Origin: Aureliella helgolandensis
GTDB lineage: Bacteria > Planctomycetota > Planctomycetia > Pirellulales > Pirellulaceae
Assembly (NCBI RefSeq): GCF_007752135.1
Contig: NZ_CP036298.1
Span: 2,480,001-2,544,000 of the forward strand
Reading direction: 5' to 3'
Length of the DNA stretch: 64,000 nucleotides
Below, piece by piece: positions 43,032-61,700 of this stretch (its first letter is position 1; each line of letters opens with the position of its first letter). The notes beneath the pieces were generated by a model. That model saw nothing but the letters and a program-made list of their open reading frames with translations, was not told the DNA's origin and did not search any database. A program made the translations under genes and the position numbers.

Positions 43032-44501
43032 CTAGGAACTTGGGCGGGGGCTTTGTGGTGTTGCATCTTGGGGGGGCTCTAGTCCGAGTTGCTCGATGCG
43101 CCGCAGCAGGCGTGGCCGGCTGATTCCCAACAGTCTTGCGACTTGGGCTCGATTGCGTGGAGAGAGTTTGAGGGCGCGCTTCAACATGAGCGTCTCCAAT
43201 TCCAGCAAGACAGTGTCCATCTCGATGGGCTGGACCCTGGCATGGGGCTGTCCGGCAGAACTGGCGAAAGTCCGGATAGCCGTGGGGAGATGTTCTACTT
43301 GAAGGGTTGGGACAAGCACGGCTCGTTCCACCGCACTCTCAATGGCCTCGCGCAAGCCGATGAGATTTCGGTGCCAGGTGTAGGCACTCAGCAGATCTAG
43401 GGCGTCCAAAGAGAATCGCATTTGTGGCTTCTGCTGCCGACTGCAGAAATCGGACAGGATTTGGGTTGCTAGGGGCGCGATGTCCTCTCGGCGTTCGCTG
43501 AGTGGCGGGAGATGGATGTCAATTTGTCCCAAGATGGATAGCAATTTGGGCCATTTTCCTCCCCGCTGGCTGAATTCGTTCGTCACCGAATGCAATGGAT
43601 TGGCGGCCGGACGGTGCGACGTCTGCAACGTGGCGGCGAGGCTGCACGTGTTTTGCTGGGAACTGTACCAGTCGGTTAATACTTCCACGCAATCGAGGTC
43701 CAACAGCTGAAGATTGTCCAGGAGCAGTTGTTGACTGCCTCGAGGTACGCCCTCCAGACGGCGGCCGCTGAAGACTTCCAACATGCCTGAAAGCAATTCG
43801 GCATCGACCACACCACATTCAATGGGGAACAAACGCCCGGAATGGACTGGTGTGGAGGCCAATCGCAGGCGCCGGGCAAAGATGGCTTCCACCACCTCCT
43901 GCTTGCCGGTCTGTGCTGCCCCAGAGATCAATACATTGCAGTCGTTCTGAATCGCTAATTGGGCCCGAGTCATCGCCAAGTCAATGGCCGGACTCTCGCC
44001 AATCAATGGCGTGAAAGGCGCAAGGGTCTTCCATCGGCTGCGCAGATTGGCCAGCACCTGCTCCTCGGAACGCCGCCCCAAGGCTGGCGTGCCTTGCACA
44101 GAGAGCATTTGCCCTTTGATCTGCTCCCATTCCCCCAAATAGACGATAGTGAGCCAAACCTCACCGGAGTCTCCCAATAGGGGGGTGAAGAGTTGGCCGG
44201 AGATCGAAGAGCCGAAGACGGGGGGAGTGGTGAGCTGTCTCCAGGCAAATTGTCCTTGGCGGGCGTTGGCCGGTGGTGCCAGGAGGCTCAGAAGGTTAGC
44301 CAGCGGCTCCTCATCGCTGCCAATGTTTCCCAAGCATTGTTTACCGACCAACTGCGTGGCCTCGACTTTGGCGAGTCGGCACAGCGAGGAATTCGCAAAC
44401 AGAATCGTTGCTTTCTGATCGAGGATAGCGACGCAATGGCTGGATTGGTCTAGCTTTTTTGCCAAGCTACGGCTGTTGCCGCCTCGATATTCTGCAGTCA
44501 T
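43032..44501 (-). CDS. PAS-AAA+-Fis transcription regulator resembling sigma-54 activators but lacking the GAFTGA loop
   Basis: A 489-residue regulator. A PAS-like domain spans about 17-125 (SHCVAILDQKATILFANSSL). The AAA+ core follows: Walker A is the altered GAAQTGKQ (194-201), Walker B is LLLDNLQLLD (about 259-268), and the region where true sigma-54 activators carry GAFTGA reads ELLSGMLEVFSGRRL, so that contact loop appears missing. A Fis-type helix-turn-helix (KRALKLSPRNRAQVARLLGISRPRLLRRIEQL) ends the protein. By the rules of the family it should not activate sigma-54 polymerase and may instead repress, or act on sigma-70. It lies 115 bp upstream of fliW and may control the flagellar genes. 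Divergent from dapL. Confidence 0.8.
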   Translation of the reverse strand: MTAEYRGGNSRSLAKKLDQSSHCVAILDQKATILFANSSLCRLAKVEATQLVGKQCLGNIGSDEEPLANLLSLLAPPANARQGQFAWRQLTTPPVFGSSISGQLFTPLLGDSGEVWLTIVYLGEWEQIKGQMLSVQGTPALGRRSEEQVLANLRSRWKTLAPFTPLIGESPAIDLAMTRAQLAIQNDCNVLISGAAQTGKQEVVEAIFARRLRLASTPVHSGRLFPIECGVVDAELLSGMLEVFSGRRLEGVPRGSQQLLLDNLQLLDLDCVEVLTDWYSSQQNTCSLAATLQTSHRPAANPLHSVTNEFSQRGGKWPKLLSILGQIDIHLPPLSERREDIAPLATQILSDFCSRQQKPQMRFSLDALDLLSAYTWHRNLIGLREAIESAVERAVLVPTLQVEHLPTAIRTFASSAGQPHARVQPIEMDTVLLELETLMLKRALKLSPRNRAQVARLLGISRPRLLRRIEQLGLEPPQDATPQSPRPSS

Positions 44502-45911: not shown

Positions 45912-46155
45912 GCGGAAACTCCAAGACCGGCTAATTTTGCACGAAATAGTCGGGAGGGAATAGAGAAGTAGGGGGATGTTCGCATTTCGCCCCTTACTTC
46001 CCTTGGGCTATAATCCTGGCCTTCGCTCCCAACCCTCGCGAGGTTTCTCGAGTTTTGAAATCTCCGTTCGATTGGCAACGGGTGCATTCTCGTTCCGGGT
46101 TTCCCAAGTAGGCGTCGGCACACTCCACTTTTTGACCGTCTTCAGAGTTTTTTGC

Positions 46156-48045
46156 ATGTCCGCAGCTTCCGCCGCTCCATCGGCCAAATCGAGTGCAAAC
46201 CGTCATGTCACAACAGGTTCCGCGGTGCAAAGTGGCCGCGAAACGGTGGAGTCGATTGTTGTCGCCTTCATCCTGGCATTTCTCTTTCGGGCTTTTGTCG
46301 CCGAAGCATTCGTGATTCCCACCGGTTCTATGGCTCCCACCCTGATGGGGGCGCACAAGGATGTTGTGTGCGAATACTGTGGTGAGGCCTATCAGGCTAG
46401 TGCGAGTGAAGAGTTCGATTCGAGCACTGGGCAACTGGTGGGTCGCGTCACGCTGGCTAGTACTTGCTCCACCTGCCGTGGGCTCAACGCCTACGATTTC
46501 GTGCAGAACCCGAATGCCGTCAGCTTTGATGGAGATCGGATCCTGGTTAGCAAATTTGATTACGTGCTGAGCCAGCCCAAACGCTGGGATGTGTTCGTAT
46601 TTAAGTATCCCGATGAAGCCCGGATGAACTACATCAAACGATTGATTGGTCTGCCTGGTGAAAAGCTGCAGATTCAGGACGGAGATATTTACGCACAGAG
46701 TACCGGTCAACTGGAGATTGCCCGCAAGCCGCCGCATAAAGTGCGAGCGATGCGGCAGATCGTTTCGGATACGGATCACCGAGGGGGGATCTTGGTCGAG
46801 AAGGGCTGGCCCAGTTTATGGCAACCCTGGACCTCTCAGGCTTCCCCTACAGGGGCAGCAAATGGCTGGGAATTAGAGCATACGCCAGAGGTTTGGTCGG
46901 CCAAACTGGCCTCCTCCACCGACCGGCAGTGGTTGCGCTACTATCATAAAGTCGTCGATGGTGTGACCTGGGAGGGGATTCGGCAGGGAGGTGACTTGCC
47001 ACCAGTGTCCCCAACATCCTCACAGCTCGTGACCGACTTCCTCGCTTACAACAGTTCGTTCTACGTGGAGTCGGGGTTGGTTTACACCGACCGGAGCAAC
47101 GATAAATTGCAGGAGGGAATTTCAGCCGAACGACGCGCCTACGACTTCGTGGCGGAGCGTGGGCGTGGCGGACTGAGCGCCCACGAGCTGAACGGCGGTT
47201 TCCATTGGGTTGGAGACTTGATCGGCGAGTTCGACATGGAAGTCCAGTCGTCCAGCGGGAAACTACTGTTGGACTTAGTCGAGTTTGGGATTCATTATGA
47301 ATGCTCGATCGACGTAGCCACAGGAGAGGCATCGCTGACGGCTAAAGGCCAAGATTTGCCTCAGCCTGTCTTTGTCGGTGAAGTCTTGAAAGGCCAGACC
47401 GGAGTAAAGGGGCCAGGCCGCTATCGCCTCGAATATGCGAATGTGGACGATCAAATTACCTTGTGGGTCGACGGTTCGGTCGTCTCCTTCGATGGAAGTT
47501 CCGCGTTCGATTCGAAGCGGGTCCGGACCGCCAAAGATCGGCGTCCCTACTGGACGGAAGCTGACCCGCTCGATGCGGCGCCCGTCGGCATCGGAGGAGA
47601 GCAATTGGAAATGACGGTCCGTCGGGCCCAAGTCTTCCGGGACTTGTACTACATTGCCCCGCAAATCATGCGTCGTGGTACGCCTTATTGCGATTACAAT
47701 TTGGACCATGGTTCCGCTATTTTGGCCTCCATTCCTGCCCCGGAAGAACGCCGACAGCTGAGTGACCAAGAAGCGATTTTGAAAGTTTACTCGCATCCCC
47801 AATGGTGGTCGCAGACCAATTTGTTCAATTTGCGAGGACGCCTGAACTTTGAACTTGAAGCTGACCAGTTTTTTCCAATGGGCGACAACAGTGCAGCCAG
47901 TTCCGACGCCCGTGCCTGGAGCGGTCATCATTTCGTGGAGCAAAAGTTCCTGCTGGGTAAGGCCTTGCTGGTTTTTTGGCCCCATACCTGGAATACACCT
48001 GTACCTTACACTCCCAATATTGCGCGCATGGGACGAATTCAATAG
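46156..48045 (+). CDS. lepB: Signal peptidase I, 629 residues, with large insertions
   Basis: Cleaves signal peptides of exported proteins at the inner membrane. After one transmembrane helix (about 33-52, VESIVVAFILAFLFRAFVAE), the catalytic Ser is S58 in IPTGSMAPTL and the general-base Lys is K161 in MNYIKRLIGLPGEK; box E, FPMGDNSAASSDARAW, appears near residue 575. Between the Ser and Lys boxes is a CxxC...CxxC pair (C72/C75 and C104/C107), possibly a zinc site. Between Lys and box E about 400 residues are inserted, including a beta-rich stretch (about 330-480, HYECSIDVATGEASL and GRYRLEYANVDDQITLWVDG) resembling a concanavalin-like fold. The ATG at 46156 follows a hydrophobic, unrelated frame starting at 45976. 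Confidence 0.88.
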   Translation: MSAASAAPSAKSSANRHVTTGSAVQSGRETVESIVVAFILAFLFRAFVAEAFVIPTGSMAPTLMGAHKDVVCEYCGEAYQASASEEFDSSTGQLVGRVTLASTCSTCRGLNAYDFVQNPNAVSFDGDRILVSKFDYVLSQPKRWDVFVFKYPDEARMNYIKRLIGLPGEKLQIQDGDIYAQSTGQLEIARKPPHKVRAMRQIVSDTDHRGGILVEKGWPSLWQPWTSQASPTGAANGWELEHTPEVWSAKLASSTDRQWLRYYHKVVDGVTWEGIRQGGDLPPVSPTSSQLVTDFLAYNSSFYVESGLVYTDRSNDKLQEGISAERRAYDFVAERGRGGLSAHELNGGFHWVGDLIGEFDMEVQSSSGKLLLDLVEFGIHYECSIDVATGEASLTAKGQDLPQPVFVGEVLKGQTGVKGPGRYRLEYANVDDQITLWVDGSVVSFDGSSAFDSKRVRTAKDRRPYWTEADPLDAAPVGIGGEQLEMTVRRAQVFRDLYYIAPQIMRRGTPYCDYNLDHGSAILASIPAPEERRQLSDQEAILKVYSHPQWWSQTNLFNLRGRLNFELEADQFFPMGDNSAASSDARAWSGHHFVEQKFLLGKALLVFWPHTWNTPVPYTPNIARMGRIQ

Positions 48046-48138
48046 TCTTTCAACTGCGACCGATTGGGGCAGCGATGTCCGCCGAGCGCTTGTCAGACCA
48101 CTGCTCGCTCCAGAACGCTTTGTCATGGATGGCATACG

Positions 48139-49041
48139 ATGAATGTACTTGAAGTCCAAGGACTCGAGAAAAGCTACGGCCGCCGCAAGGTGGTCAATGG
48201 CGTAAGCCTGACGGTTGGTGAAGCGGAGATCGTGGGGCTGTTGGGACCCAATGGAGCAGGCAAGTCGACGAGCTTTAAAATGACATGCGGGATCGTGCGA
48301 CCCGACCGCGGAAAAGTCATTTTAGGAGGGATCGATGTGACCGATTGGCCTCTGTTTCGTCGCGCCAAGGAAGGGCAGATGGGCTATCTGGCGCAAGAAT
48401 CGAGCGTCTTTCGGAAGTTGACCGTAGAGCAAAATATCTTAGCGGTATTCGAGCTGCTGGGGGTTGGGTCGCGCGAACGCAAGGCCCGAACCCAGAAGTT
48501 GCTTGAGGAGTTCGAGATCACCCATATTCGCCGGTCGAAGGCTGGCCGGCTCTCTGGCGGAGAACGCCGCCGTTTGGAGATCGCCCGGTGCCTAGTATCC
48601 AATCCCCAGATCATCATGCTCGATGAGCCGTTTGCTGGTATTGATCCAGTCACAGTGCAGAACATTCAGGAAATCATCAAGAAGCTGAGAGAGCGTGGCA
48701 TTGCGATTCTGATTACTGACCATGCCGCGCGTGAAATACTCCAAACCGTCGATCGCTGCTATGTGATCAGCAAAGGGGCGGTTTTGTGTGAGGGACCGCC
48801 TGAAACGGTTCGGCAGCATCCCGTGGTTCGCAAGGAGTACCTGGGGGATATCGGTGACGAGTTTTCCGTTCCAGCAGCCGATTTACGAACGGCTACCAAG
48901 GCTCCCGCGACCTTCGAGGAACAAGCAGCTCGATCGGCCGTTGCATCCAATCGCTCGACCAGCATCCGCGTTGAACACATCGCACCCAAGGCCGAGAACG
49001 CAATGACGCGACCAACTCGCCGTCGCCGTACCGACGTCTAG
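48139..49041 (+). CDS. lptB: LptB-like ABC transporter ATPase
   Basis: A 300-residue ATPase of the LptB/LivF-like group that energises lipopolysaccharide export in the Lpt system. Walker A is GPNGAGKSTS, the signature is LSGGERRRLEIARCL, Walker B is IIMLDEPFAGIDPVT and the switch His is in ITDHAAREIL, with LTVEQNILAVFELLG as the Q-loop neighbourhood. The first 240 residues match LptB; a basic, low-complexity tail of about 60 residues (from about 240 on, ending RPTRRRRTDV) is additional. The ATG at 48139 starts the conserved LEVQGLEKSYG block. It lies 93 bp after lepB and may be co-transcribed. LptC/LptA partners are not in the window. Confidence 0.88.
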   Translation: MNVLEVQGLEKSYGRRKVVNGVSLTVGEAEIVGLLGPNGAGKSTSFKMTCGIVRPDRGKVILGGIDVTDWPLFRRAKEGQMGYLAQESSVFRKLTVEQNILAVFELLGVGSRERKARTQKLLEEFEITHIRRSKAGRLSGGERRRLEIARCLVSNPQIIMLDEPFAGIDPVTVQNIQEIIKKLRERGIAILITDHAAREILQTVDRCYVISKGAVLCEGPPETVRQHPVVRKEYLGDIGDEFSVPAADLRTATKAPATFEEQAARSAVASNRSTSIRVEHIAPKAENAMTRPTRRRRTDV

Positions 49042-49140: not shown

Positions 49141-52100
49141 CTAAGGCGCCTGAACCGGGAGAGTGCCATCAACCGTCCCGGTCATCGATCCGGTTGGTAG
49201 CGGCAGTGCACTGGGGCAAGGGATCGTGCCTTCGGTCAAGTCTGAGGTGTCCATTGCGGAGGGATCTGTGGAAGTCTCCTCGGGCACCGCCAACAGTTCG
49301 AGCAGCCCAGAGACGGGGGCCCATTCGACGTCAACGCGCGTGTGCAAACGTTCCGCCAAGCGTAGTGTATCGCTAGAGGGACGCCACAGCGTAGCAATCA
49401 GCGCCGGCAGGTTTACATGGGTTGCTTCGCTGAATAGATGCAATCCAAGGCGGCAGGATGTGGGTAGCAGGGTCGTGGATTTATGGAGTGAATTCCGCTG
49501 GAGAAACGGTTGGATCAGCTCCAGCTGATCGGCTGGTCCGATCACGATGCGATCGGCATCTCCTCCCACCATGGATAGATTCGAAACGAAGGACGAGATC
49601 TCTTTGAGCTGCGTGGTAAACTCTTCCTCGATGTCCTGGTTCTGAAAGACTGCGTCCGAAATATCACCTTCGCGAGAGTACCGATTCAGTAGATCGGAAG
49701 CCAAGTTGAGCATGTATTTCAGATTGATCTCTGCAACGGTACCTTCGTGCATGTGTGCGTTGCCTACTCCCAATTCTGTTGGCTCTGCGATACTTTCAAT
49801 TATTGGAGTGATAAGCTTTTGGAGCTTTGCGTTCAACGCATTGTTGACTCGCTCTGCAACTCGCTGCAATGGGATCGGCAAGGTATTGAAGCTAACCTCT
49901 TGCTCGGATTCATTGAGGACCGTTTCGGCAACAATCGAATCGCACCACTTTTCCAACTTCTGAGCGATTTGCTTGCCATGAGCTTGGTACCGCTTTAGCC
50001 GTTCCATGTAGGCTACCGTGAGCGTCTGACAGTATTGGCTAGCAGCGGCCTGTAGATCATCCGGAGGGTTTTGCAGTTTCAGCTTGGGCTGAATGTGCTG
50101 CATGAGTGCGCTCAGGTGAATTTCGCTGAAGTCCAGTATCTGTTCAATGGCATGGAGTTGTAATTGTTCGATCTGTTTCCAGTTAAACAATCGGAGCCCT
50201 ATTTGTTTAGAAACGGCAGCCTGCCAGATTCGGAGATCTTCGGCAATAAGTAGTTTGGCTGCGTCGGGACGCTGCTCGAGTCGTTTCCTCCAGAGCTCCA
50301 AACTGTGTTCTTCGGAATCCTGCGAAATAGGGGATTCGTTAAAATCATCGCTGGTGCAAAACCCCAATTCTCTGAGTAAGAACGTCGAGAATCTCTGATG
50401 CCGTGCAGGCGATAATGGCAATTCGCTCTGCAAGGAATCTTGGGCAGAGCAGAGAGGATCTTGTTGGGCAGAGGCGGGGGGCGTCTGGACGGCTGACCAT
50501 CTGTCCGATTTGAGTCCTGTTCCGGTCAAGAAGCAAAGGGTATTGGCCAGCGAGGTTGAACAACACCAGCGAGCTAATTTGACCGGCGAAATCGAATTGG
50601 CAATGTTGAGTTTCCCGGTACGCACGGTGCGTAACCAGCCGAGTGGTTGCTGACAATCGTCTCGACGGACTGGATCTAGCGTAGCACCGCACAGCGATTG
50701 TGAGTCCAGGAAAACCGCTTGCGCTAACGCATTTACACATTCGATTGCATCATCATTATCGCCATACAATCCGCCGTCCAGCAACGCGAGGGAGGTCACC
50801 GGCTTAACGCGCACTGGGCCTTCCAAAGCGTTCTCCGGGTGAATGGATGGATACATGTGTTCACCGGACATCATGAACTGCAGTTCGGCCAGGGAGGCCA
50901 ATCCAGCGGCAGATGCCAGGCTAGCGCCGGTGCCATTTAGAGTCGCAGCTGCGGTGCAGAATCCATAGGTGTGGAAATCGCGAATGCCTTTGGACTGGAG
51001 AAGCGAGTTGACTAGCAAACCGACTTCCGACATTAATGCACTACCGGTACCGCCATGGAGTGACGCTATCAGATAGATCCGTACCGGATCGGAAGTTCTT
51101 TCGGACGTGCCCTGTTGTTGCGTAAGGTTGTCGAGGGCCGCATCTAGTGACTTCTTGAGGTGTGCGTAATGATGGAGGAAGGCGAGGATCGCCAGTGGCC
51201 GGACACCCTCTGTCTTCAACGATCGTGGGATGTTGTAGAGCCAGCGTCTGGACAGCGCGGAAAATAGTGTTGAATCGATCTTGCGGTATTCGCTAGGTGA
51301 GAAAATCGGTAGGGCACAGGTTTCTTCGAGCGTTAGGGCACAATCCTCTTCTACGTTGACCAATTTTTCCAGTGCATCTACGTTTGTATCGATTGCGCGC
51401 CAGCAGTGGTCTTGCACGGTGAATGGATTTTCACTGTCTTTGGCAATGCGTCTGCGTAGGTTGAGCAAAACGTCACCCGCGATGCCCCCCATACCGATGA
51501 ACAGACAACGAGCTGGGTTCCATTGATGGTCCGGTGTTTGATGTGCGATTGGCGAGCGGAAGTTGATTCTTGCATTGAATGCAGGAGACGTTACTGTATT
51601 TTGTATCTCTGTGTTTGAAGCGGCTACTGAATCTTGCCCCGCGATCGACTTGACGGGATGCGTCGCGACCATGATAGGGTTTTTGACTTTGGCTAGCTGC
51701 TCGATAAACTGTCGGCAGCTAGCGTATCGATCAACGGGGTTTTTGCTAAGAGAGCGTCCCACGATCGCGCGATCTGCGGGAGGCAGTGCCTCTAGATTGG
51801 GTGCTTTGGCAATATGTTGTCGCGCGATTTCGCCGGTCGTTTTTCCATCAAACGGAAGTTTTCCGGTGAGCATCTCCATGTAGAGAACAGCGAGCGAATA
51901 TTGGTCACTGCGGTGGTCCGGACGGCCATCAAAGATTTCAGGCGCGGAGTAGCTGGGAGTGAGCCCGCTGATCATCGACTGCGTGTGGGAGTGCAGATCC
52001 TTGACCAGGCCAAAATCGGCGACCTTGATTCGATCGGCGATTAGCAGCAAGTTCCCAGGTTTGACGTCCAAGTGCTGCAAGGAATGTTTCTGGGATAAGA

Positions 52101-52494
52101 AGTCCAAGGCATCCGCTGCATCTCGCAGGAATTCTAGCAAGGTGCCACGGTGAATACCTGGAGCCCCTTTGCGTCGAAACTGTTCAAAACGGTCGAGCAG
52201 ACTGCATTCCGCCAACTCGGTCACAATGACGACTTGCTCGTCAACAATTTCGATTCTCTCGATCGACAGCAGGAAAGGGTGGTAGACCTGCGAAATGCGC
52301 CGCAGACTTTTCAGCTCTCCACTAGCTTGGGCTTGTTCCAATGTTCCGAAGACAAGCTTGACCGCCTTCTGAAGCCCACCAGGAGCATCTGCCATCCAGA
52401 CTTCACCGTACCCGCCAGCTCCGAGACGGTGGCGCAATTGATACCCTGGGATCGGTTCGTAGCCAGCGATTACGGAGGCTGGATTGAGAGTCAT
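49141..52494 (-). CDS. Ser/Thr protein kinase fused to a tubulin-like domain
   Basis: A 1117-residue protein with no transmembrane helix. Residues 18-270 are a eukaryotic-type kinase: Gly-loop GAGGYGEVW (25-33), Lys K46 in KAVKLVF, catalytic loop HLDVKPGN (141-148, Leu where Arg is usual in HRD), VADFG (158-162) and SAPE (183-186). From about 327 to the end lies a tubulin/FtsZ-superfamily unit resembling Tubulin_2: FIGMGGIAGDVLLNLRRR (332-349) is the nucleotide-binding start and IASLHGGTGSALMSEVGLL (477-493) the tubulin signature. The rest (about 750-1117) is mostly helical. The kinase probably works in the cytoplasm. It lies 45 bp downstream of the AAA+ gene. HRD-to-HLD loss may affect regulation but not catalysis. 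Confidence 0.83.
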   Translation of the reverse strand: MTLNPASVIAGYEPIPGYQLRHRLGAGGYGEVWMADAPGGLQKAVKLVFGTLEQAQASGELKSLRRISQVYHPFLLSIERIEIVDEQVVIVTELAECSLLDRFEQFRRKGAPGIHRGTLLEFLRDAADALDFLSQKHSLQHLDVKPGNLLLIADRIKVADFGLVKDLHSHTQSMISGLTPSYSAPEIFDGRPDHRSDQYSLAVLYMEMLTGKLPFDGKTTGEIARQHIAKAPNLEALPPADRAIVGRSLSKNPVDRYASCRQFIEQLAKVKNPIMVATHPVKSIAGQDSVAASNTEIQNTVTSPAFNARINFRSPIAHQTPDHQWNPARCLFIGMGGIAGDVLLNLRRRIAKDSENPFTVQDHCWRAIDTNVDALEKLVNVEEDCALTLEETCALPIFSPSEYRKIDSTLFSALSRRWLYNIPRSLKTEGVRPLAILAFLHHYAHLKKSLDAALDNLTQQQGTSERTSDPVRIYLIASLHGGTGSALMSEVGLLVNSLLQSKGIRDFHTYGFCTAAATLNGTGASLASAAGLASLAELQFMMSGEHMYPSIHPENALEGPVRVKPVTSLALLDGGLYGDNDDAIECVNALAQAVFLDSQSLCGATLDPVRRDDCQQPLGWLRTVRTGKLNIANSISPVKLARWCCSTSLANTLCFLTGTGLKSDRWSAVQTPPASAQQDPLCSAQDSLQSELPLSPARHQRFSTFLLRELGFCTSDDFNESPISQDSEEHSLELWRKRLEQRPDAAKLLIAEDLRIWQAAVSKQIGLRLFNWKQIEQLQLHAIEQILDFSEIHLSALMQHIQPKLKLQNPPDDLQAAASQYCQTLTVAYMERLKRYQAHGKQIAQKLEKWCDSIVAETVLNESEQEVSFNTLPIPLQRVAERVNNALNAKLQKLITPIIESIAEPTELGVGNAHMHEGTVAEINLKYMLNLASDLLNRYSREGDISDAVFQNQDIEEEFTTQLKEISSFVSNLSMVGGDADRIVIGPADQLELIQPFLQRNSLHKSTTLLPTSCRLGLHLFSEATHVNLPALIATLWRPSSDTLRLAERLHTRVDVEWAPVSGLLELLAVPEETSTDPSAMDTSDLTEGTIPCPSALPLPTGSMTGTVDGTLPVQAP

Positions 52495-52539
52495 AGATGG
52501 TGGTCTTTAAAACGACGAACTTAAAGGCCCCGCTGATTG

Positions 52540-54051
52540 CTAAGCATTCATGCAGGCGACTTGCTGGGTGGCTTCTATGGGAACAGGTAGTGGCAGGCTT
52601 GGAGCAGGAGCCTGTACGGGCGTGGCTTGAGCGGAACTCTTGTTCTCCCTAGTCTCTGGTCGCGCCACTGGGGGCTGCTTGGCGACTGCAGCGGTTGCCG
52701 CAGGTATTCCACCGAGCGTACCAAAGTAATTTCTGCAGGCGTGTTGCAGGTAGTCGATTCGAAGATCGAGCGGTTCTCGGCGATAGACGCAGTAGGCGCG
52801 GACTTGGTTCAACAGGTCGCGTGGGTAGCAACGTCTTAGGGGAAGTTTGTTGGCCTGGAAGAAACACGTGATGAGCTGCTTCACGACATCGGGTCTCCAG
52901 GGAAATCCCATTGCTCCACACGCGCGTTGGAACAACGCCAGGAATTCCTCTGGCCGTGGATCCTTGATTTCGATTTTAAACGGAACGCGACGGAGGAAGG
53001 CTTCGTCCACTAAATCTTGGGGTTGAAGGTTCGTTGAGAAGAGAACGATTTGTTCGAAGGGAACGCTGATCTTCTTGCCGGTGGGGAGCGTCAGGAAATC
53101 CTGCTTGCTTTCCAAGGGGACGATCCAACGATTGAGAAGCTCCTCGGGAGCAACGCGTTGGCGTCCGAAGTCGTCGATCAACAAGCTACCGCAGTTGCTC
53201 TTAAGTTGAAGTGGAGCTTCGCAAGTATTAGTCCTCGGATCATGCCGAATCTCCAAATTGTCCAGAGTGAGTTCTCCTCCGACTACTACCGTGGGTCTTG
53301 ATATGCGAATCCAGCGGCGATCGAAATTCTGCATATTGACCAGGCCCGAATCGTTTTCGACCTGTTTGGGTTGATGATAGGCTGCATCGAAAATCTTGAT
53401 GATCATGCCGTCATCGATGATTGCGTGCGGGATCCAGATGCTCTCGCCGCGGAGGACGGTCAAGCATTTGGCGAGCGTCGTCTTTCCATTGCCCGGCGGT
53501 CCATACAGAAATATCCCGCCGTTGCTGTTCACCGCCGGACCGATAAAGTCAAGCCAACTTGGATCGACGGAGATGTCCGTAAAGGCCTCCAGCAAGCGAT
53601 CGCGTTCGACGGGCTCGTACTGATTGGCTTGAGCTTCGACCGATAGGACATAATCGGACAAGGGAACCGGCGCGGGGCCGGTATACGTGAACGACTTCTG
53701 GTGTCGAATAGCTCTCTGCTGCCCGTTTTCGGTCAGGCTGTAGTAGTAGTCGTTGAGTGGTGCTGAGCGCGCGTGTGCGATGATTTGACGTGTTCGCAGT
53801 ATCGCAAGGTTTTCGTCAATAATGCCGAAAGGAAGGCCTGCCGATTCTGCAATACGTCGACCGCTGAGCGTTCCTGAAGCCATGAGAATCTGGCAAATCA
53901 GCGACTCCACAAACGATTGGCTGAGTCCGGCATCTGCTAGAGAGACCGGTTCTGCAGGCCAATAGTGGTCTTCATGCAATACACTCGGTAATTCCGCATT
54001 GGGAATCGATGCGGTATCGCGGGAGTGGAATTGACTGGATGTATTGGACAT
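52540..54051 (-). CDS. AAA+ ATPase with N-terminal winged-helix-like domain
   Basis: A 503-residue cytoplasmic ATPase. An N-terminal helical unit of about 40-117 looks like a winged helix (LICQILMASGTLSGRRIAESAG... LTENGQQRA), suggesting DNA or protein recognition. The ATPase core has Walker A GPPGNGKT (184-191), Walker B LLIDD (290-294), sensor FSTN (338-341) and an arginine-finger-like LRRV (353-356), a complete set. A Pro/Ala-rich tail ends the protein. The ATG at 54051 was selected because preceding residues to 54222 are not domain-like, though no ribosome site is obvious. It is directly upstream of the kinase-tubulin gene and likely the first gene of a two-gene operon; it is divergent from the FHA-EAL gene. 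Confidence 0.8.
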   Translation of the reverse strand: MSNTSSQFHSRDTASIPNAELPSVLHEDHYWPAEPVSLADAGLSQSFVESLICQILMASGTLSGRRIAESAGLPFGIIDENLAILRTRQIIAHARSAPLNDYYYSLTENGQQRAIRHQKSFTYTGPAPVPLSDYVLSVEAQANQYEPVERDRLLEAFTDISVDPSWLDFIGPAVNSNGGIFLYGPPGNGKTTLAKCLTVLRGESIWIPHAIIDDGMIIKIFDAAYHQPKQVENDSGLVNMQNFDRRWIRISRPTVVVGGELTLDNLEIRHDPRTNTCEAPLQLKSNCGSLLIDDFGRQRVAPEELLNRWIVPLESKQDFLTLPTGKKISVPFEQIVLFSTNLQPQDLVDEAFLRRVPFKIEIKDPRPEEFLALFQRACGAMGFPWRPDVVKQLITCFFQANKLPLRRCYPRDLLNQVRAYCVYRREPLDLRIDYLQHACRNYFGTLGGIPAATAAVAKQPPVARPETRENKSSAQATPVQAPAPSLPLPVPIEATQQVACMNA

Positions 54052-54541
54052 ATCACACCGTTTTTTTACTTCAGCGTCGTGGCTGAGTAACCATAGCAGG
54101 GCAAGCGCATTGGACTCCCAACGCATGCACGTAAATTCGGAAGCCGCGGAAGCGTAGCCCACGCAGAACGGGAAGGAGGCCCTGAGGTCATCCACGAGCG
54201 AAAGCAATTCGCAAAGTGTCATTGAGTTTTAGGGATCTAGCGATTGTTCCAGCAAACTGGGCTCCTCGCGCTCGGCAGTCGGAGTGGATAGGCAAGGGGG
54301 GGCGGGGCTGGTTGGAGCTACCGCGTCTGCCGCGAGCACACCCAGAACCGTACGCGTCAGCCCGAATGGGTGTTCTCGATGAAGCTGTAATGCATACGAT
54401 CGTTAAGTAACTCAGCCAATAGTCGAGAAATAGGCAGTCGAGTGGAGACACTTGTCATTTTTGTGTTCTAGAGTTTTGGGTGTTGAATTTTCGCGCCATC
54501 ATCATCGCCCAAAACGATGGTTCGTAGTTTGAAAGTAAGTC
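54052..54541. other. Divergent promoter region of the AAA/kinase pair and the FHA-EAL gene
   Basis: About 490 bp between two divergent genes. The AAA frame is open to 54222 but lacks domain-like sequence there. Both promoters should be located here. No palindrome or repeat stood out. Confidence 0.4.
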
Positions 54542-55678
54542 ATGGACTCAAATCATTGCCCCACAACCATTGAGAGTGCTTTGCAGGAAACTGCTGAGGT
54601 CTCCCAAGCTGGAGTTACGTGGACGCTCGTCCGCGGCACGGACGGGGCAGATGAGCAGCACATCCAAGTCGTGCCACCCTTTCCATTTTCGATTGGTCGA
54701 CGCCCTGGATGTTCACTGCAGCTCAATTACAAGACAATTTCGGGAACGCACGCAGAACTGAGACTCGAAGGCGAGCAGCTGTGGGTGTCCGATCTGAATA
54801 GTACCAATGGTACCTATGTAAATGGGCGGCGGATTAACGCCCGTGTCCCACTCCGCGAAGAGGATTTGCTGCAATTCGCTGACATGGCATTCCGAGTTCG
54901 AAGCGAGAGTCGTCAGAACACCTGTTTGACGATGGCTGAGGATGTGTGCGATCAAGCATTGGCTTTAGTGCAATTTGATCGCTTGATGGAAAATCGACTG
55001 GTCACCCCCTACTTTCAACCAATTGTTGATATGGCTACGGGGGCATTTCGTGGATACGAGATACTTGCCCGCAGCCGATTGTTTGGGCTCGAGTCATGCT
55101 CAGCCATGTTTGATGCAGCCGCCAGATTGAACATGGAAGTCGAATTGAGTCGCATGTTGCGTTGGGAGGGAGTACGGGAGGGGTTGAACCTGAACGGAAA
55201 CGCGACCCTGTTTGTCAATACGCACCCACTTGAGATTCGACGTGAGGGATTGATTGCGTCTATGGGAGCAGCTCGACAACTGTCCCAAGATGTTCCGATT
55301 ATTCTTGAAGTGCATGAGGCAGCCATTACTGATCCGCGTGAAATGCAATTGCTGCGTTCACAGCTCAAGGAGCTCAATATCGGCCTCGCCTACGACGATT
55401 TTGGAGCTGGGCAGACTCGACTTTCAGAACTAGTCGAAGCTCCGCCGGATTACCTCAAGTTCGATATTTCTCTGATTCACGAGATTGATAGAGCAACTCC
55501 AGAGCGGCAGAAGATGCTCGCGTCCCTGGTCCAAATCGTACTGGAGCTGGGGGTCAACCCGTTGGCCGAAGGTGTCGAGACTGAGGCCGAAGCAGAGGTT
55601 TGTCGCAATATGGGGTTCTTAACTGCACAAGGCTTCTATTTTGGTCGTCCGGCACCCGTTCGTGACTATCAGCTGTAG
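54542..55678 (+). CDS. FHA domain fused to EAL c-di-GMP phosphodiesterase
   Basis: A 378-residue protein. The FHA domain (about 28-118) shows the phosphothreonine-binding positions SIGRRPGC (50-57), ISGTHAE (66-72) and NSTNGTYVNG (86-95). The EAL domain (about 140-378) begins with RGYEILARSR, an E-I-L variant of EAL, and retains FVNTHP, ILEVHE, YDDFGAG, LKFDISLI and EGVET, so all core catalytic residues (Glu, Asn, Glu, Asp-Asp, Lys, Glu) are present and activity is expected. This is a cytoplasmic enzyme that would degrade cyclic di-GMP under phosphorylation-dependent control. It is divergent from the AAA/kinase-tubulin genes; the kinase is the obvious candidate to supply the phosphothreonine. 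Confidence 0.87.
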   Translation: MDSNHCPTTIESALQETAEVSQAGVTWTLVRGTDGADEQHIQVVPPFPFSIGRRPGCSLQLNYKTISGTHAELRLEGEQLWVSDLNSTNGTYVNGRRINARVPLREEDLLQFADMAFRVRSESRQNTCLTMAEDVCDQALALVQFDRLMENRLVTPYFQPIVDMATGAFRGYEILARSRLFGLESCSAMFDAAARLNMEVELSRMLRWEGVREGLNLNGNATLFVNTHPLEIRREGLIASMGAARQLSQDVPIILEVHEAAITDPREMQLLRSQLKELNIGLAYDDFGAGQTRLSELVEAPPDYLKFDISLIHEIDRATPERQKMLASLVQIVLELGVNPLAEGVETEAEAEVCRNMGFLTAQGFYFGRPAPVRDYQL

Positions 55679-55775: not shown

Positions 55776-58700
55776 CTAACCGCGCGAGGCCGATTGCTGT
55801 CGGCGACGCCTATCGGAAAAATGGGCGACGAACAGCACCGCGGCTGTGGAAAGCAAAACCATGCTTGGCCAATAGATGGGCAACAGCAGCCCCGTGATCA
55901 GGCCGAGTTGGCACCAATACAGGTAGGGATGGGCTGAGAGCAATTCGGCATACCATGGGGTGAATTTGCGAAAAAGAAATCCGGCTAGTACTGCTACCGC
56001 TAGAATAAGGAAGGCAGCGACAAACCGCGGTGTGGCTGATACGAAATCCTCTTGCGATTCGACCACGATTTGCTGGCCGCTGTGGATTCGCGTCAAATCC
56101 GAGCGTGCGACCAGCCATTCGTTTCCGTCTAGTTGGGGAATCGGAATCGTATTCTGGGCGGAAAACTCAGGGAGGGCCGACTGTGGTGGACTTTGACTGG
56201 CTATGTCGCTCGCACCCAAGAACTCGCACGTCGCTGTCCAAAAATCTTCAACTGTGAGCGGAGTCTGCGACTCATCTCTGCGAATGGCAGGTGAGCTGGG
56301 GGCTAGCTCTGGTAGCAAAAGCTTACCGCTGATTCCAACGGTGCTGGGATGCCAACTCAACAACCAGGCTTCCATTTCGGTGTTCGAGAGTCGGCTGACA
56401 TTTGCGGTCGCCAGCACAATGACCTCTGCCCAACGCTCCGCATTCTCCAATTGAATTTGCGGACTTGCCAACTCCGCTTCTGTCGGAGAATTGTCTTCGC
56501 TGTCCGTTCCTGAATCGAGGGAAGCGGTGGGGGGCGTCAGCCGACCCGTTGGGGTTCCCGAGCCGGAGGTTGCTGCCAGCTCTGCACCTAGAGAGGCTCT
56601 CCCGTCGCTGCTGGTAAAATGCTCGGGAACTAGGCGTAAGCGAGATTCCTGCAACTGATCCAAAATGGAAATTTCGTCAGTTGCTTGGAGCGCGTTGGGG
56701 AATGTTGGTAGCTGGATTGCGAGAGCGCCAGTATCCTGCTTTTCCCACTGCAATAAGACTCTGAGATTCATCGGCAGATAATTGGGTTGCAACAACACGT
56801 TCACACTGCCATCCTTGCGAGCTTGCCATGTCGCCGGTTGGACTCCGTTTTCGATGCCGATGATGCGACAGGCATCGGGAAGAGCAATGGTGAGATTCAC
56901 CTGACCATTGGGGGCGATCCAGTACTGGGTGTATCCCGAAATTACACCGCTGGTTTCCGAGGCGAGCGTGACACGCTGAAACAGAATCTCAGCTTGCTTT
57001 TTTGATTTGCCCTCGGAACGCCAGACCGCTAGAGTCTGGTTGCGACTGAAATTAAAGCAAAAGTAATTGCTCCAATCCTCATTGTTTAGATTGGTCGATT
57101 GCTGATCCGAAATCGGAGCTCCTAGCCTAGTCCATCGCACTGATTGACCATCGAGCTGCTTAGGCAGGGCGACCACGGTTGAATTCACCCCTTCATTTAA
57201 AACGCGAATGCTAGGAATCGAAATGGATTGCCCCGCTGGTGAATCCTGGAGGGGAAACTGCAATTGTAGTTCGACCACTCCGTCGACTGGATTCGGTGGC
57301 ACGACGCATAGGTTTAGTCGAGAGGGATCGCCGGTAGGGATTAGGCGACGCGTCAATTTGCCAATTTCAAGAGAGTCACGAATGGCAAGTGGTATTTCAA
57401 AGCTTGCGATATCCAATGGAGATTGCAGTTGTTCCCACCGTATCTCGAATCGACAATTCCAACCGGAAGGGCCTCGATCGAGGAATAGTGTAGAGCTGGG
57501 ATTCGCATCTCTAGTCTGTTTTGTTAATTGGTATTCAATCGGTAGTTGGGCCTGACGGTAATCCCCGCCCAATTCCGCATCGCCTACCAAGGCTTCTAAG
57601 TTTTCAAGCAGCTCGGCACTTCGGACATTACTTGGTTCCCAAGCAATGTCGGCATTAGAGTCGTCAAACAATTCGCATTCCATGCCAGCCGCGCGCATCA
57701 GGCGATAGCTTGAGCTCTCAGCCTCGACTTCCTCCATGGTGATTCTGGGCAGGGGGTGGCGAGAACCGGTTTGGGCCGTTGCAGTTAGGTCCAGTTCCAC
57801 GATCTCGATAGCCGCGGCAGTCTGTTGCGCGGACACCAAGAGAATGTTCGAGTCCCGTTCGACTCCAAGCGTGTAAGTTGCCGGATTCCCATCGATAACG
57901 ACTCGGGTAGGATGCATGTTCTTAGGCAGCCGCAAACGAATTGGCACTCGCGTAGATCTCGCTTGCTTAAACTGGGCTCGGTAGTTCATGCGAACGTTGG
58001 ACGCGGCCAAATGAACTCTCGTCACCTCATTGACAATTACTTCGGAAGCCTCTGACAACCTGCGTATGCTGGTGGCAATGGCTCCATCACTCACGATATA
58101 GAGCGTGGGAGATAGGGTGGATAGACTCAAGCCACCCCAGCTGACTTGCTGTTGATCCGCAGCACGCTGCCAGAAATCGATGTCTTCCAGTCGCCACCGA
58201 GCGTTGGGCTCGCTGGACCAACCCAAAGTACGTTTGGGTTGGGTCATTCCCTGCAGGGTCAGAAACGGCAGCTTGAGTGAGCTAGATAGGTTGGCGTTCT
58301 TAGGGAGCATCAAGACCCGAATGACTCGGGAAGTGTTGGAGGCTGTTTCTGCACGCAACCGCATGGAGTAGCTCTTCTGACTGCCCATCGAAGTCAAAGC
58401 TTCGCCCGTCAATTCACCGTCGCCCCAACTAGCGCCGACCGGTTCCCAGCCCGCATCACAGAGTATTCGAAATTCGTTGGGGAAGCTCTCGTCTTCTGGG
58501 AGCTGTAGTTGGCACGCAGCAATCACTTGGCTACCGGTGGAATGAATCCAGGTAGCAGCCGTGAAAGTGGCGGTCGGGCCCACAAAGGAACTAGCGGCAT
58601 TTTCCGCTGGCCAGGCGATGTCAATTTCATCAATCGCTCCAAGTTTGGCGAACAAACTGGACATTGATTTCTGAACTTGCCCAATGGACTCGACATCAAA

Positions 58701-61700
58701 ATTCTGCTGGTTGTCGGACAGGAGACGAAGCGTGGCATTCGGTAGCGGAGGTATGGAGAATTTGACGTGCAGTTTGTCCTGGATCAAGGTCGGTTCAATA
58801 TCGTCGAACCTCAGCTGCAATTGGATGGTGCCTGCGGCTAGCGGACGGTAGAAGACGGAATTGGTCTCCGCATCCTGCGAGATGCGGCCTCCTAGCGCCA
58901 ATTCCTGTCCGCCAACTTGGCTGCCCACGAGACGCAGCGGAGAAGCGGCCAGAGGTAGTTCAAAATCGGCGTTGGTGTGGTGGAAACGCAATTGGAGGGT
59001 CAGGCTAATTTCCTGAGCGCGGTACGTACCAGACAAGCTGTGCCGAATCCGCATTTTGTACTCTGCAGATAGCACTTGAGGGGGTAACCCTTGGGTACCG
59101 CTGGACGACGGGTTCTGCAGCAACTGAAGGAGTTTTGTAGGCGCGTAAATGTAGCTTCCCGCCACCTCGTTCTTGCTGTCGACGGGGATAAGGACACCGT
59201 AGATAGTTGGGCTTTCTTCGGAATTGGAGCTGGAAGTCGTGGTTCGTTCCGGAACGCCTTGCGCCCCGACATTGGCGATTGGAAAAGTTGCCAGGATCAA
59301 GAGTGCTGGCAGCGTCCCTCGAAGCAGACGGGACCCGCTGCGCACGCCATTTGAAGCTTGGCTACAAAGGTTTAGAACGGGAGCGACGAGCTGAAGCAGC
59401 GCGGCGGCCAATGTGGCCAATAGCAGAATTTGCGCTACGGGGAGTAACCAACTGGGAACGGCAACAACGAAAGCGGCGCTGAGCATGATGGCATACCAGC
59501 CAATCAGTGGATGTCGCTTGCTGACGATCCTCAGGAGAGATGTGCAAAGTAGGACGCTGGCCAAGACCATGGTTGCAAAGGCAGTTCGATGGACAATCCA
59601 AACTCTTGCGACGGCTGGCGTAATCGGGCCGCTGCTGACATCAGGTTGTTCTACCAGGAGTGGCATCGAAGTCCACCCCGATGAAAAAGGGGCATCACTG
59701 GGACGTGTTTCTTGGAGCTGGCTGGGAGCTAACCAATGCCACAGATTGCTGGTCTTCAGTCGGTCGATAAGTCGAATTGTGACTTGGGATTGACGTAGTA
59801 GGGTTAGTGGAATGTGTGACGGAGAAATCATCACGCGTGCCCGACTGCTCAGCGTGGGCACCGAAACTTGAGGAATTGGCAGGGCTGCGTTTTCGAGCCA
59901 TGACAATGGATCGGACTTACTGGTGCAGCGGAGAGTTACCGTCGATTGGCCTGCGGGCAGTTTGATGGTGAGTGTCTTGAATTGCTCCGTCTTACTAGTC
60001 GAGGGGGCCATTTCAATGATTTGCTCATCGACTTTAACGTTGTCGACTCGCCAATCCTTGGGCAAGCAGATGTCGCATGAGGAATCGGCTATGGACTCCA
60101 TCGTCCAGCTGATTTCATGCAAACGCGAGCCGTCGTCTCGTATGGTATGTTCGACGAATTGCTGCCAAGCCCAGAGGCGAGAGTTGGTCGATTGAGGGAC
60201 CATCTCGAATTCCAGCCACTGACTACTGCTGGTGTCCAGTCTGGCTGCAATGGAGTTCTTCGCCTGTTTTTGGCTCATGCTTTCAATCGCTTGAACGATG
60301 TCATCGTCCGAGCAACACAAGCCTGTCGACAGCAATTCAATACTCTGCTCATTGGACGGAGCGGCAAACTGCTTCGGCAAAATCAGCAGGGAACCACTCG
60401 ACGCGGCCCGGGGAACATTGACTATGGGAACTCGCAAAGTTTGTGCGGATAGGGGCCGAGTGCCCAAGACCGCTTGCAACTTGAAAGCCTCCTGCATGCT
60501 TTGCGGTAGCTTCAACTCGATCGATACGTCTCTATTGCCTAAGGTCTCCTGCCGAACCGCGGTGATGGGACTGGGACTGGAGTTTCCATCATCGGAAATG
60601 AAATGCCACTCAAGGAGATCCGCATCGGTCTCAGGTGGAAAGTTCAGCTGAAGGCTGTCAACGGCGCCCGACATGGGCTGGCATTGAATCCACACATCGG
60701 TCTGCCAATGTTGGTTGGTAGCATGGACGATGGTCGTCACGTTGGAGACGAAAGTGCCTCCAGACGCGACCATCTGGATGGATGGCATTGCTCCCTGAGG
60801 TGCATGGAAGAGCCAGACATTGCCCGCCTGGGGCAGTAGTTCTCGCTGCCAGTCAGGCAGGTTGCTTGGCTGTATTTGGTAAGGTACCAAAGTAGCCGTG
60901 GGACGAACTTCGAACGGCCCCAGTGCATCGACAGCGTAGTTGTCAACTTGGAATGCATCGGGAAGGGTGACAATGCTATCTGCGATCAATTTAAATTGTT
61001 CGGATTCCTGAGATCTCGGACTGTGTGCGATCGCTTCGATCTCAAAGCTAACGTTTTGTGGAGTTCCATCCCAGTCCGCAGTAATTAAGGCATCGGCAGT
61101 ATCAACTGAGTCGCCTAGCTCTACACGCAGATTGGCTTCGCTTGCCTGAACGACTCGCACGCTATCCACGAACCAACCGTCGCCAACACGCATCTTGAGT
61201 TCATTGACCGTGGGGGATTTTCCGGTGATCCTTAAACGGCAACTGGCAGACAACCATTCGGCTTGAATCGAGAATCGTGTTAGTCCATAGACTTGCCATT
61301 GACGGGTTTGTTGGGCGATGTGTGCTGTGATCGCTGGTGATGTATTCAACCACCGTGCAGTCCACACGGGGCGAGTGTTGTCCGATGGGGAGTTGGTCGA
61401 CTCCACAATGCTGTCTGCGGCATCCAGTCGGGTGACTAGCAGGTTGTCTAGAGCTTGAACCGTTGTTGTTCCATTGATCGTAGCAGCTTGGGATAGTTGG
61501 ATTTGCGGCAACACAGTTGGAGAGGCTGTGGACGGTCCATGCTCACCCGCCGGAAGATTGTCTGTGCTGGTTTGCGGCGGTGCAAGAAAGTCTTCCTCCG
61601 CTAAGGCTTGTACGATCAGGCTGCGGCGTGGCAAAGATTCTGTGTCGGTTTCCAACTCAATCAAAAAATCGGTGGTGCTCGGAGTGGGGACAATTCGCCA

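Follow-up and report, generated by a model that had tools for sequence, protein, structure and literature searches.

The window analysed here, a stretch of 64,000 nucleotides of the Aureliella helgolandensis genome (NZ_CP036298.1, positions 2,480,001 to 2,544,000, numbered from 1 below), harbors a gene encoding a Hanks-type serine/threonine (Ser/Thr) kinase fused to a tubulin-like GTPase of the Tubulin_2/FtsZl1 type. Among its relatives, this kinase-tubulin gene is accompanied almost invariably by a gene coding for a protein with an FHA and an EAL domain, and it is co-inherited with a dedicated AAA+ ATPase. We propose, as a tentative reading whose chances we place somewhat short of even, that the locus specifies a three-component signalling module in the cytoplasm, made up of a phosphorylation-gated GTPase hub, a cyclic di-GMP (c-di-GMP) protein recruited through its FHA domain and an AAA+ ATPase that resets the assembly. 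In many planctomycetes, a fusion first reported in 2010 thus appears to form the core of a signalling module with a testable job.

The kinase-tubulin fusion protein

An initial annotation of this DNA, made from the sequence alone, described a Ser/Thr kinase core and the signature residues of a tubulin-like domain within one protein, and this description is borne out. PF00069 and PF13809 match in the same frame (Table 1), the latter with 68.1 bits, above its curated cut-off of 27. Alignment of 23 homologues shows no variation at the kinase residues K46, N148, D160, G162, P185 and E186 and next to none at E60 and D143; in the C-terminal motif of the fusion R1049 and R1053 are invariant in the aligned homologues, and D1055 and W1058 nearly so. 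Across 67 tubulin halves, G336, G481 and G482 are retained without exception (67/67) and D369 in 66/67. Within the GGTG(S/T) G-box, T483 occurs in 49/67 and G484 in 61/67, and the GTP-site residues G334, G336, D369, G481, G482 and G484 are each retained in 61 to 67 of the 67 sequences. The linker of the fusion is rich in Thr, Ser and Pro, with Thr and Pro amounting to 9.1% and 10.9%, respectively, in linkers, against 5.4% each overall. No transmembrane segment is predicted in the fusion, the AAA+ protein or the FHA-EAL protein of the window.

A structure model of residues 327-1117, built with 67 sequences from the window and the named loci (mean pLDDT: 85.3; pTM: 0.75), was compared by Foldseek against the PDB, giving 470 matches at E<=10, nine of them at E<=0.001. 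Every one of the best 50 of these 470 matches is an FtsZ, CetZ, TubZ, tubulin or microtubule assembly entry, the matched chain within large assemblies being deduced from chain length. CetZ2 is the top match (4b45_A; e-value: 2e-5; TM-score on target: 0.50), and the FtsZ of Bacillus subtilis (4u39_C; e-value: 1.3e-3) reaches 0.53. The tubulin/FtsZ fold foreseen in the initial annotation, with a TM-score of about 0.5 as its threshold, is thus recovered at that threshold when normalised on the target; the query-normalised score is only about 0.2, because the model carries a long added helical region (residues ~686-968). A strand-helix-strand-strand stretch (residues ~979-1025) follows this region and may, judging from the model, represent the second domain of the tubulin fold in a displaced position. 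A PDB sequence search using the profile of the tubulin half retrieved no tubulin and, for the most part, helical bundles aligned to the helical region; the assignment was decided by the fold search.

The fusion is the sole Tubulin_2 match in the 8.44 Mb genome. PF00091, the FtsZ/tubulin family, has no match anywhere in this genome, in a search that was positive in 13/14 control genomes.

Conservation of the gene neighbourhood

Sixty relatives, the window genome included, were compared, of which 35 contain a tubulin half and 25 lack one; in the latter the best matches are at kinase level, and 12/25 were also without a match in the order or class scans. Neighbourhoods were fetched for 36 loci, 35 with a tubulin half and one (L069, genome G021) with a kinase only. 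In G021, a 383 amino acid kinase sharing 54% identity with the fused kinase has no tubulin half alongside (L168:4583-5734). Named genomes were scanned with a 25-row profile and the motif core RRW[LI]YNIP, which retained 80 of 97 confirmed loci, including those of Blastopirellula marina DSM 3645, Lacipirellula, Botrimarina, Bythopirellula, Adhaeretor and Aeoliella. Removal of duplicates left 100 distinct tubulin-half loci. Kinase and tubulin half share an ORF (open reading frame) at 95/100 of these, the other five being four loci that begin at a contig end and L071, which lacks the kinase. In genome G010 the kinase and tubulin half lie in two different frames (L047:6739-9869), through a frameshift, an assembly error or a genuine split.

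Neighbours were counted at the 76 loci with at least 6 kb of upstream sequence. Within 7 kb of the fusion, FHA-EAL genes are found at 73/76, AAA+ genes at 54/76 and genes coding for REC-GGDEF-CBS proteins at 31/76 loci, as counted with profiles derived from the first loci and then also applied to those same loci. Proximity of the FHA-EAL gene by chance is very unlikely, since the 8.44 Mb window genome contains a single FHA-EAL match (E<=1e-20). At the same threshold, FHA-EAL genes are present in 32/35 genomes with a tubulin half, against 2/25 of the others (G034 and G042 being scored by profile beside the fusion). This most constant neighbour lies outside the coordinates of the initial annotation and was missed there, as was the REC-GGDEF-CBS gene, which belongs to a second variant of the locus. 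Apart from these four families, every gene cluster is confined to at most 5 of the 44 clustered stretches, the clusters being partly annotated. As regards vWA, GTPase and OmpA neighbours, the clustering brought out no further widely recurrent family, vWA not having been searched by profile.

A dedicated AAA+ ATPase

The pairing of the fusion with an AAA+ ATPase had likewise been suggested in the initial annotation. It proves stronger than guessed at the level of genomes, and the two genes lie near each other at most, not all, of the loci (54/76). Pfam AAA models match the ORF at 52540-54222(-) below their cut-offs only. The Walker A GxPGNGK and Walker B DDFG motifs are invariant in 49 AAA+ homologues, and the structure model (pLDDT: 77.5) shows an AAA+ fold, with 8p49, Lon, BchI, RuvB and NorQ among the best structure matches. 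As read from the model, the N-terminal part appears winged-helix-like (helix-helix-helix-strand-strand order), with the AAA+ domain after it. Among the best 60 of 136 matches in a profile search, mainly the P-loop stretch was aligned.

The AAA+ phylogeny comprises 100 sequences covering the 60 relatives, with only two short edge fragments of genome G014 left out of the site list. An earlier tree of 73 rows lacked 29 of the 103 AAA+ sites; 27 were later added, all of which fall outside the partner clade, and the same clade is found in both trees. This partner clade (SH-aLRT: 99) comprises 35 sequences, contributed by every genome with a tubulin half except G018 (34/35). The 25 genomes that lack a tubulin half account for 26 rows of the tree, none of which falls in the clade, and four of these genomes have no AAA+ match at all. 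The remaining 65 rows are paralogues, which are present in genomes with and without a tubulin half. The AAA+ ATPase is a dedicated paralogue, co-inherited with the tubulin half. It lies outside the fetched flanks of the fusion in 9/34 genomes (G017, G022, G033, G034, G039, G044, G046, G050 and G058). In G033 the two genes are 3.5 Mb apart on a single contig; separate contigs elsewhere are no proof of distance.

Genome G014 is 73% complete, and its contig gives no kinase-tubulin or FHA-EAL match and AAA+ fragments too short to place; a fusion in this genome may have been overlooked. These broken fragments of a genus member lie at the contig edge, in the first 334 bases of contig C325 (L229). 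A second AAA+ paralogue of similar length (L076:9269-10897; near 6495271 in genome C1) occurs with or without the fusion, and at the paralogue loci L072-L078 neither an FHA-EAL gene nor a tubulin half is found beside the paralogue (7/7).

Two variants of the FHA-EAL protein

The FHA-EAL proteins were scored at what we take to be the eight catalytic positions of EAL domains and the GR, S, H and NG positions of FHA domains. Among 87 neighbouring proteins, 46 keep 7 or 8 of the eight catalytic residues and 41 keep 0-5; exclusion of three truncated proteins leaves 84, with 46 in the former (variant I, the window type) and 38 with <=5 in the latter class (variant II). In an alignment-free check, D(D/E)FG and ExLxR are both present in 40/46 variant-I proteins and both absent from 37/38 of variant II, and the Pfam EAL profile still matches seven of seven variant-II proteins tested (e-values: 1.1e-14 to 1.9e-34). 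The FHA residues are complete (6/6) in 46/46 variant-I and 38/41 variant-II proteins. That they stay while the EAL catalytic set is lost in variant II argues that the phospho-reader is the part held constant, and this retention, read from sequence, is the strongest signal for a putative phospho-link.

The variants also differ in their gene content. A REC-GGDEF-CBS gene is found near the fusion in 0/46 variant-I and 34/38 variant-II loci and an AAA+ gene in 44/46 and 15/38, respectively, and in variant II the FHA-EAL gene is co-directional with the fusion in 38/38. The neighbouring GGDEF domains of variant II carry a GG(D/E)EF motif in 0/34 cases, a looser pattern being passed by 2/34. Variant labels group together on the kinase tree (13 changes vs 36.9 in shuffles), in which six rows cover less than 30% of the columns, the label of L037 is wrong owing to a truncated protein and that of L093 may be. 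Examples of REC-GGDEF-CBS genes beside variant II are found at L065:12331-13836 and L063:11850-15200; the latter locus has two in tandem, of which the second matches PF00990 far better (3.6e-43 vs 7.8e-17).

Distribution beyond the order

The tubulin-half profile matches 109/296 genomes of the order and 163/347 genomes of the class, in overlapping samples. In a sample of the phylum apparently without a genome of family f112, 14/294 genomes match PF13809, 11 of them above the cut-off. A suspicion that Pfam undercounts the family was withdrawn, as six fusions from f112, f115 and f21 all match PF13809 above the cut-off.

Outside the order, 21 fusion loci (L159 and 20 more) were examined, hand-picked from the listing and mostly from well-assembled genomes. 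In families f21 and f113, the FHA-EAL and AAA+ genes are both present at 7/7 fusion loci, with 8/8 EAL and 6/6 FHA residues in all seven proteins. The EAL catalytic activity looks ancestral, as the intact form is the one found outside the order too. The FHA-EAL protein of L159 was detected by a frame-wise search, the greedy ORF choice having taken another frame. At L217, FHA-EAL and AAA+ lie 3.8-4.9 kb away on the opposite strand, and the frame of the fusion is interrupted close to its end; in this copy (L217:6731-10363; genome G612, f113) the tubulin half is split across two frames or by a stop. Tandem pairs of kinase-tubulin genes occur in f112 (L215:3435-10750 and L223:4633-12105), and the f112 genomes G636 and G802 carry two fusion copies far apart. 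The ORFs called at seven further Tubulin_2 loci in the phylum (L160-L165 and L167; one in f21) include no fused kinase, FHA-EAL or partner AAA+; those of L165 and L167 gave no tubulin-half match either.

Proposed mechanism and alternative readings

In the proposed module, the kinase-tubulin protein would form the hub. Its FtsZ-like half is predicted, from the conserved residues of the site, to bind GTP and would probably self-associate, bringing the fused kinases together. The clustered kinases may then phosphorylate their own threonines, those of the Thr/Ser/Pro-rich linker being one example, or threonines of partner proteins, and the FHA domain would read the phosphothreonine and so bring the EAL domain to the hub. 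In variant I, where all catalytic residues are present, the EAL domain would hydrolyze c-di-GMP locally; in variant II the EAL domain and the GGDEF domain of the third protein, having lost their catalytic motifs, could act as c-di-GMP sensors or as pure scaffolds. The dedicated AAA+ ATPase would disassemble or reset the hub assembly, and the output would most likely be a c-di-GMP-controlled choice of cell state. Filament formation by the tubulin part and a remodelling role for the AAA+ protein, both put forward in the initial annotation, are likewise putative. The Bdellovibrio protein DgcB provides a precedent for the gating of a c-di-GMP enzyme by an FHA domain (PMC6733907).

The constant FHA-EAL and the co-inherited AAA+ would turn the fusion into a testable circuit, joining a kinase, a phosphothreonine reader, c-di-GMP, GTPase assembly and ATPase reset in a genome without canonical FtsZ, and the catalytic and degenerate variants offer a natural experiment on the EAL domain as enzyme or receptor. 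A bolder version of the proposal, which we consider unlikely, is a second-messenger compartment on a GTP-driven tubulin-like scaffold in planctomycetes without canonical FtsZ, with a kinase on each subunit, a phosphodiesterase or a dead EAL/GGDEF receptor pair recruited by phosphothreonine, and disassembly by the AAA+ protein.

Several observations weigh against the proposed module. No phosphosite was identified, and the linker and the FHA-EAL tail are without a shared motif, as judged by eye and by composition. The T7 loop of FtsZ could not be assigned in the tubulin half, and GTP hydrolysis in a polymer is therefore not claimed. Genomes G026 and G030 carry an FHA-EAL gene without a tubulin half, G040 (L071) keeps the tubulin half and the AAA+ without kinase and FHA-EAL, and G018 has the fusion without partner AAA+ and FHA-EAL. 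The Fisher values for co-inheritance (5e-16 and 2.8e-11) ignore shared ancestry, and an association of genes does not demonstrate contact between their products. In families f112 and f115 the fusions stand without FHA-EAL or AAA+ at 14/14 loci. The 11 genomes concerned contain no FHA-EAL match at E<=1e-20, and their AAA+ matches score no higher than 487 bits, as compared with at least 669 bits for partner-type sequences and 575-611 bits for the copies ranking second in f21 and f113. Outside the order, FHA-EAL and partner AAA+ are thus either both present or both absent and the fusion can also occur by itself, which indicates that the hub can do without them. Finally, the tubulin half diverges faster than its companions, with a mean identity within the genus of 40% for its core and 25% for its C-terminal part (residues 621-1090), vs 66% for the kinase, 69% for the AAA+ and 65% for the FHA-EAL protein.

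One alternative, which we place on the unlikely side, has c-di-GMP as the input of the system, with EAL/GGDEF receptors held by the FHA domain controlling assembly of the tubulin half, the job of which would be membrane or cell-shape remodelling. The 38/84 untruncated FHA-EAL proteins of variant II and the loss of the GG(D/E)EF motif from all 34 neighbouring GGDEF domains would fit such receptors, and FtsZl1 has been linked to membrane genes elsewhere (PMC2875224). However, the other 46/84 FHA-EAL proteins retain 7 or 8 of the eight catalytic residues, a form also found outside the order (7/7), and the three window proteins lack predicted transmembrane segments.

A flagellum-linked switch of motility or attachment, in which the module would set local c-di-GMP for a swimmer-to-sessile change, is decidedly less probable still. 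Flagellin (PF00669) is encoded in 32/35 genomes with a tubulin half vs 12/25 others (Fisher: 2.7e-4), in a test that ignores shared ancestry and genome size, and the window itself harbors flagellin and FliD genes 8-14 kb from the module. A flagellin gene is, however, found near the fusion in one other genome only (L041 and L084, on the same contig), and flagellin is missing from G018 and also from G049 and G054, two genomes in which the gene set is complete.

Least probable of all is a biological-conflict system (anti-phage or kin-conflict), in which the fast-evolving C-terminal half of the tubulin part would meet the invader and the kinase and AAA+ would trigger the response: the divergence of the tubulin half would fit an arms race, the kinase matches the PD-T4-6 (1.9e-38) and MAD6 (4.3e-38) models, which have no cut-off here, and some conflict systems built around GTPases in Firmicutes and Actinobacteria include tubulins (PMC7159879), but the best 25 of 28 PADLOC matches all fall on the kinase domain and may reflect any Hanks kinase, those to the AAA+ protein fall on the P-loop and nothing outside these two regions is matched, and the breadth of the tubulin half in order and class, the lack of further recurrent clusters among those partly annotated and the clustering of the variant label on the kinase tree all speak against it.

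Other features of the window

The coordinates of the module are collected in Table 1. Promoter and terminator scans gave counts not above those of shuffled sequence.

Table 1. Features of the kinase-tubulin locus in the A. helgolandensis window
Feature	Coordinates	Strand	Remarks
Kinase-tubulin fusion (Hanks-type Ser/Thr kinase and Tubulin_2/FtsZl1)	49141..52494	-	single unbroken ORF, 1117 aa
Kinase domain, residues 18-267	51694..52443	-	PF00069, E 1.2e-27; catalytic residues conserved
Tubulin-fold GTPase half, residues 331-602 (GxGG 334-337, D369, GGTGS 481-485)	50689..51504	-	PF13809, E 1.1e-18
Lineage motif SRRWLYNIPRS..TEGVRP, residues 415-433	51196..51252	-	
Predicted long helical region, residues ~686-968	49591..50439	-	structure model
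Conserved C-terminal motif, residues 1049-1058 (R1049, R1053, D1055, W1058)	49321..49350	-	
AAA+ ATPase dedicated to the fusion	52540..54051	-	frame open to 54222; homologues begin near 54051
Walker A (GPPGNGKT) of the AAA+ protein	53479..53502	-	invariant residues
Intergenic gap of 490 bp separating the divergently oriented AAA+ and FHA-EAL genes	54052..54541	.	promoter-like matches at chance level
FHA-EAL protein, predicted c-di-GMP phosphodiesterase with phosphothreonine-reading domain	54542..55678	+	PF00498, 8.2e-19; PF00563, 1.8e-39
FHA domain, residues 50-112	54689..54877	+	GR/S/H/NG intact
EAL domain, residues 146-370	54977..55651	+	eight catalytic residues all present

Downstream of the fusion lie an ABC ATPase-like gene (48064-49041(+)) and a signal-peptidase-like gene (45976-48045(+)), both named by reading, and such a pair also adjoins the fusion in two other genomes of the genus (L036 and L043). 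On its other side, the module is adjoined by a 2,323 amino acid ORF (55776-62747(-)) with hydrophobic stretches, which has no Pfam or NCBIfam match and is not a recurrent neighbour. Further away are genes for a large flagellin (929 aa; 38399-41188(-)) and a FliD-like protein (908 aa; 35431-38157(-)), together with a sigma-54-activator-like gene (43032-44501(-)).

Comparison with known systems

CetZ, FtsZ and TubZ share the fold of the window fusion, which adds a long helical region after the GTPase half and in which a T7 loop is not assignable. To our knowledge, none of these three carries a fused kinase.

The GAP1-N2 conflict systems resemble the locus in combining a tubulin-family protein bearing a coiled-coil or helical extension with a multi-gene set; they are described for Firmicutes and Actinobacteria, alongside genes for vWA, FNIII and GTPase proteins (PMC7159879). 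These families were not recurrent in our neighbourhood clustering, no profile search having been aimed at them. In the FHA-GGDEF protein DgcB of Bdellovibrio, the FHA domain is described as gating the c-di-GMP enzyme via a phosphopeptide (PMC6733907). DgcB is, however, a cyclase whose ligand is its own N-terminal region, whereas the window type has an EAL domain and a kinase encoded next door.

Also among the closest known counterparts are the FtsZl1 proteins. Four planctomycete FtsZ-like proteins with an additional N-terminal kinase domain were reported by Makarova and Koonin in 2010 (PMC2875224), and the planctomycete kinase fusion is mentioned again in a 2023 article (PMC9871819). The initial annotation put the pair forward as its best candidate for an undescribed system, a label that does not hold for the fusion itself. 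The 2010 article links FtsZl1 to membrane genes and proposes membrane or cell-shape remodelling, and a reviewer's remark in it points to a diguanylate phosphodiesterase neighbour in Pirellula staleyi, such that the fusion was already known and its c-di-GMP neighbour had been noticed once. In its main text the terms FHA and GGDEF are absent and AAA occurs once, with regard to chelatases. The literature searched, whose coverage mostly lies outside subscription papers, yielded neither an account of the FHA domain, of the dedicated AAA+ or of the two variants nor a tested function for any FtsZl1 protein. FtsZl1 and the window protein belong to the same superfamily and share the N-terminal kinase fusion in Planctomycetes; the 2010 account of the former stresses vWA, GTPase, kinase and OmpA neighbours, whereas the window type is set apart by FHA-EAL, by a dedicated AAA+ ATPase and, in one variant, by REC-GGDEF-CBS (PMC2875224).

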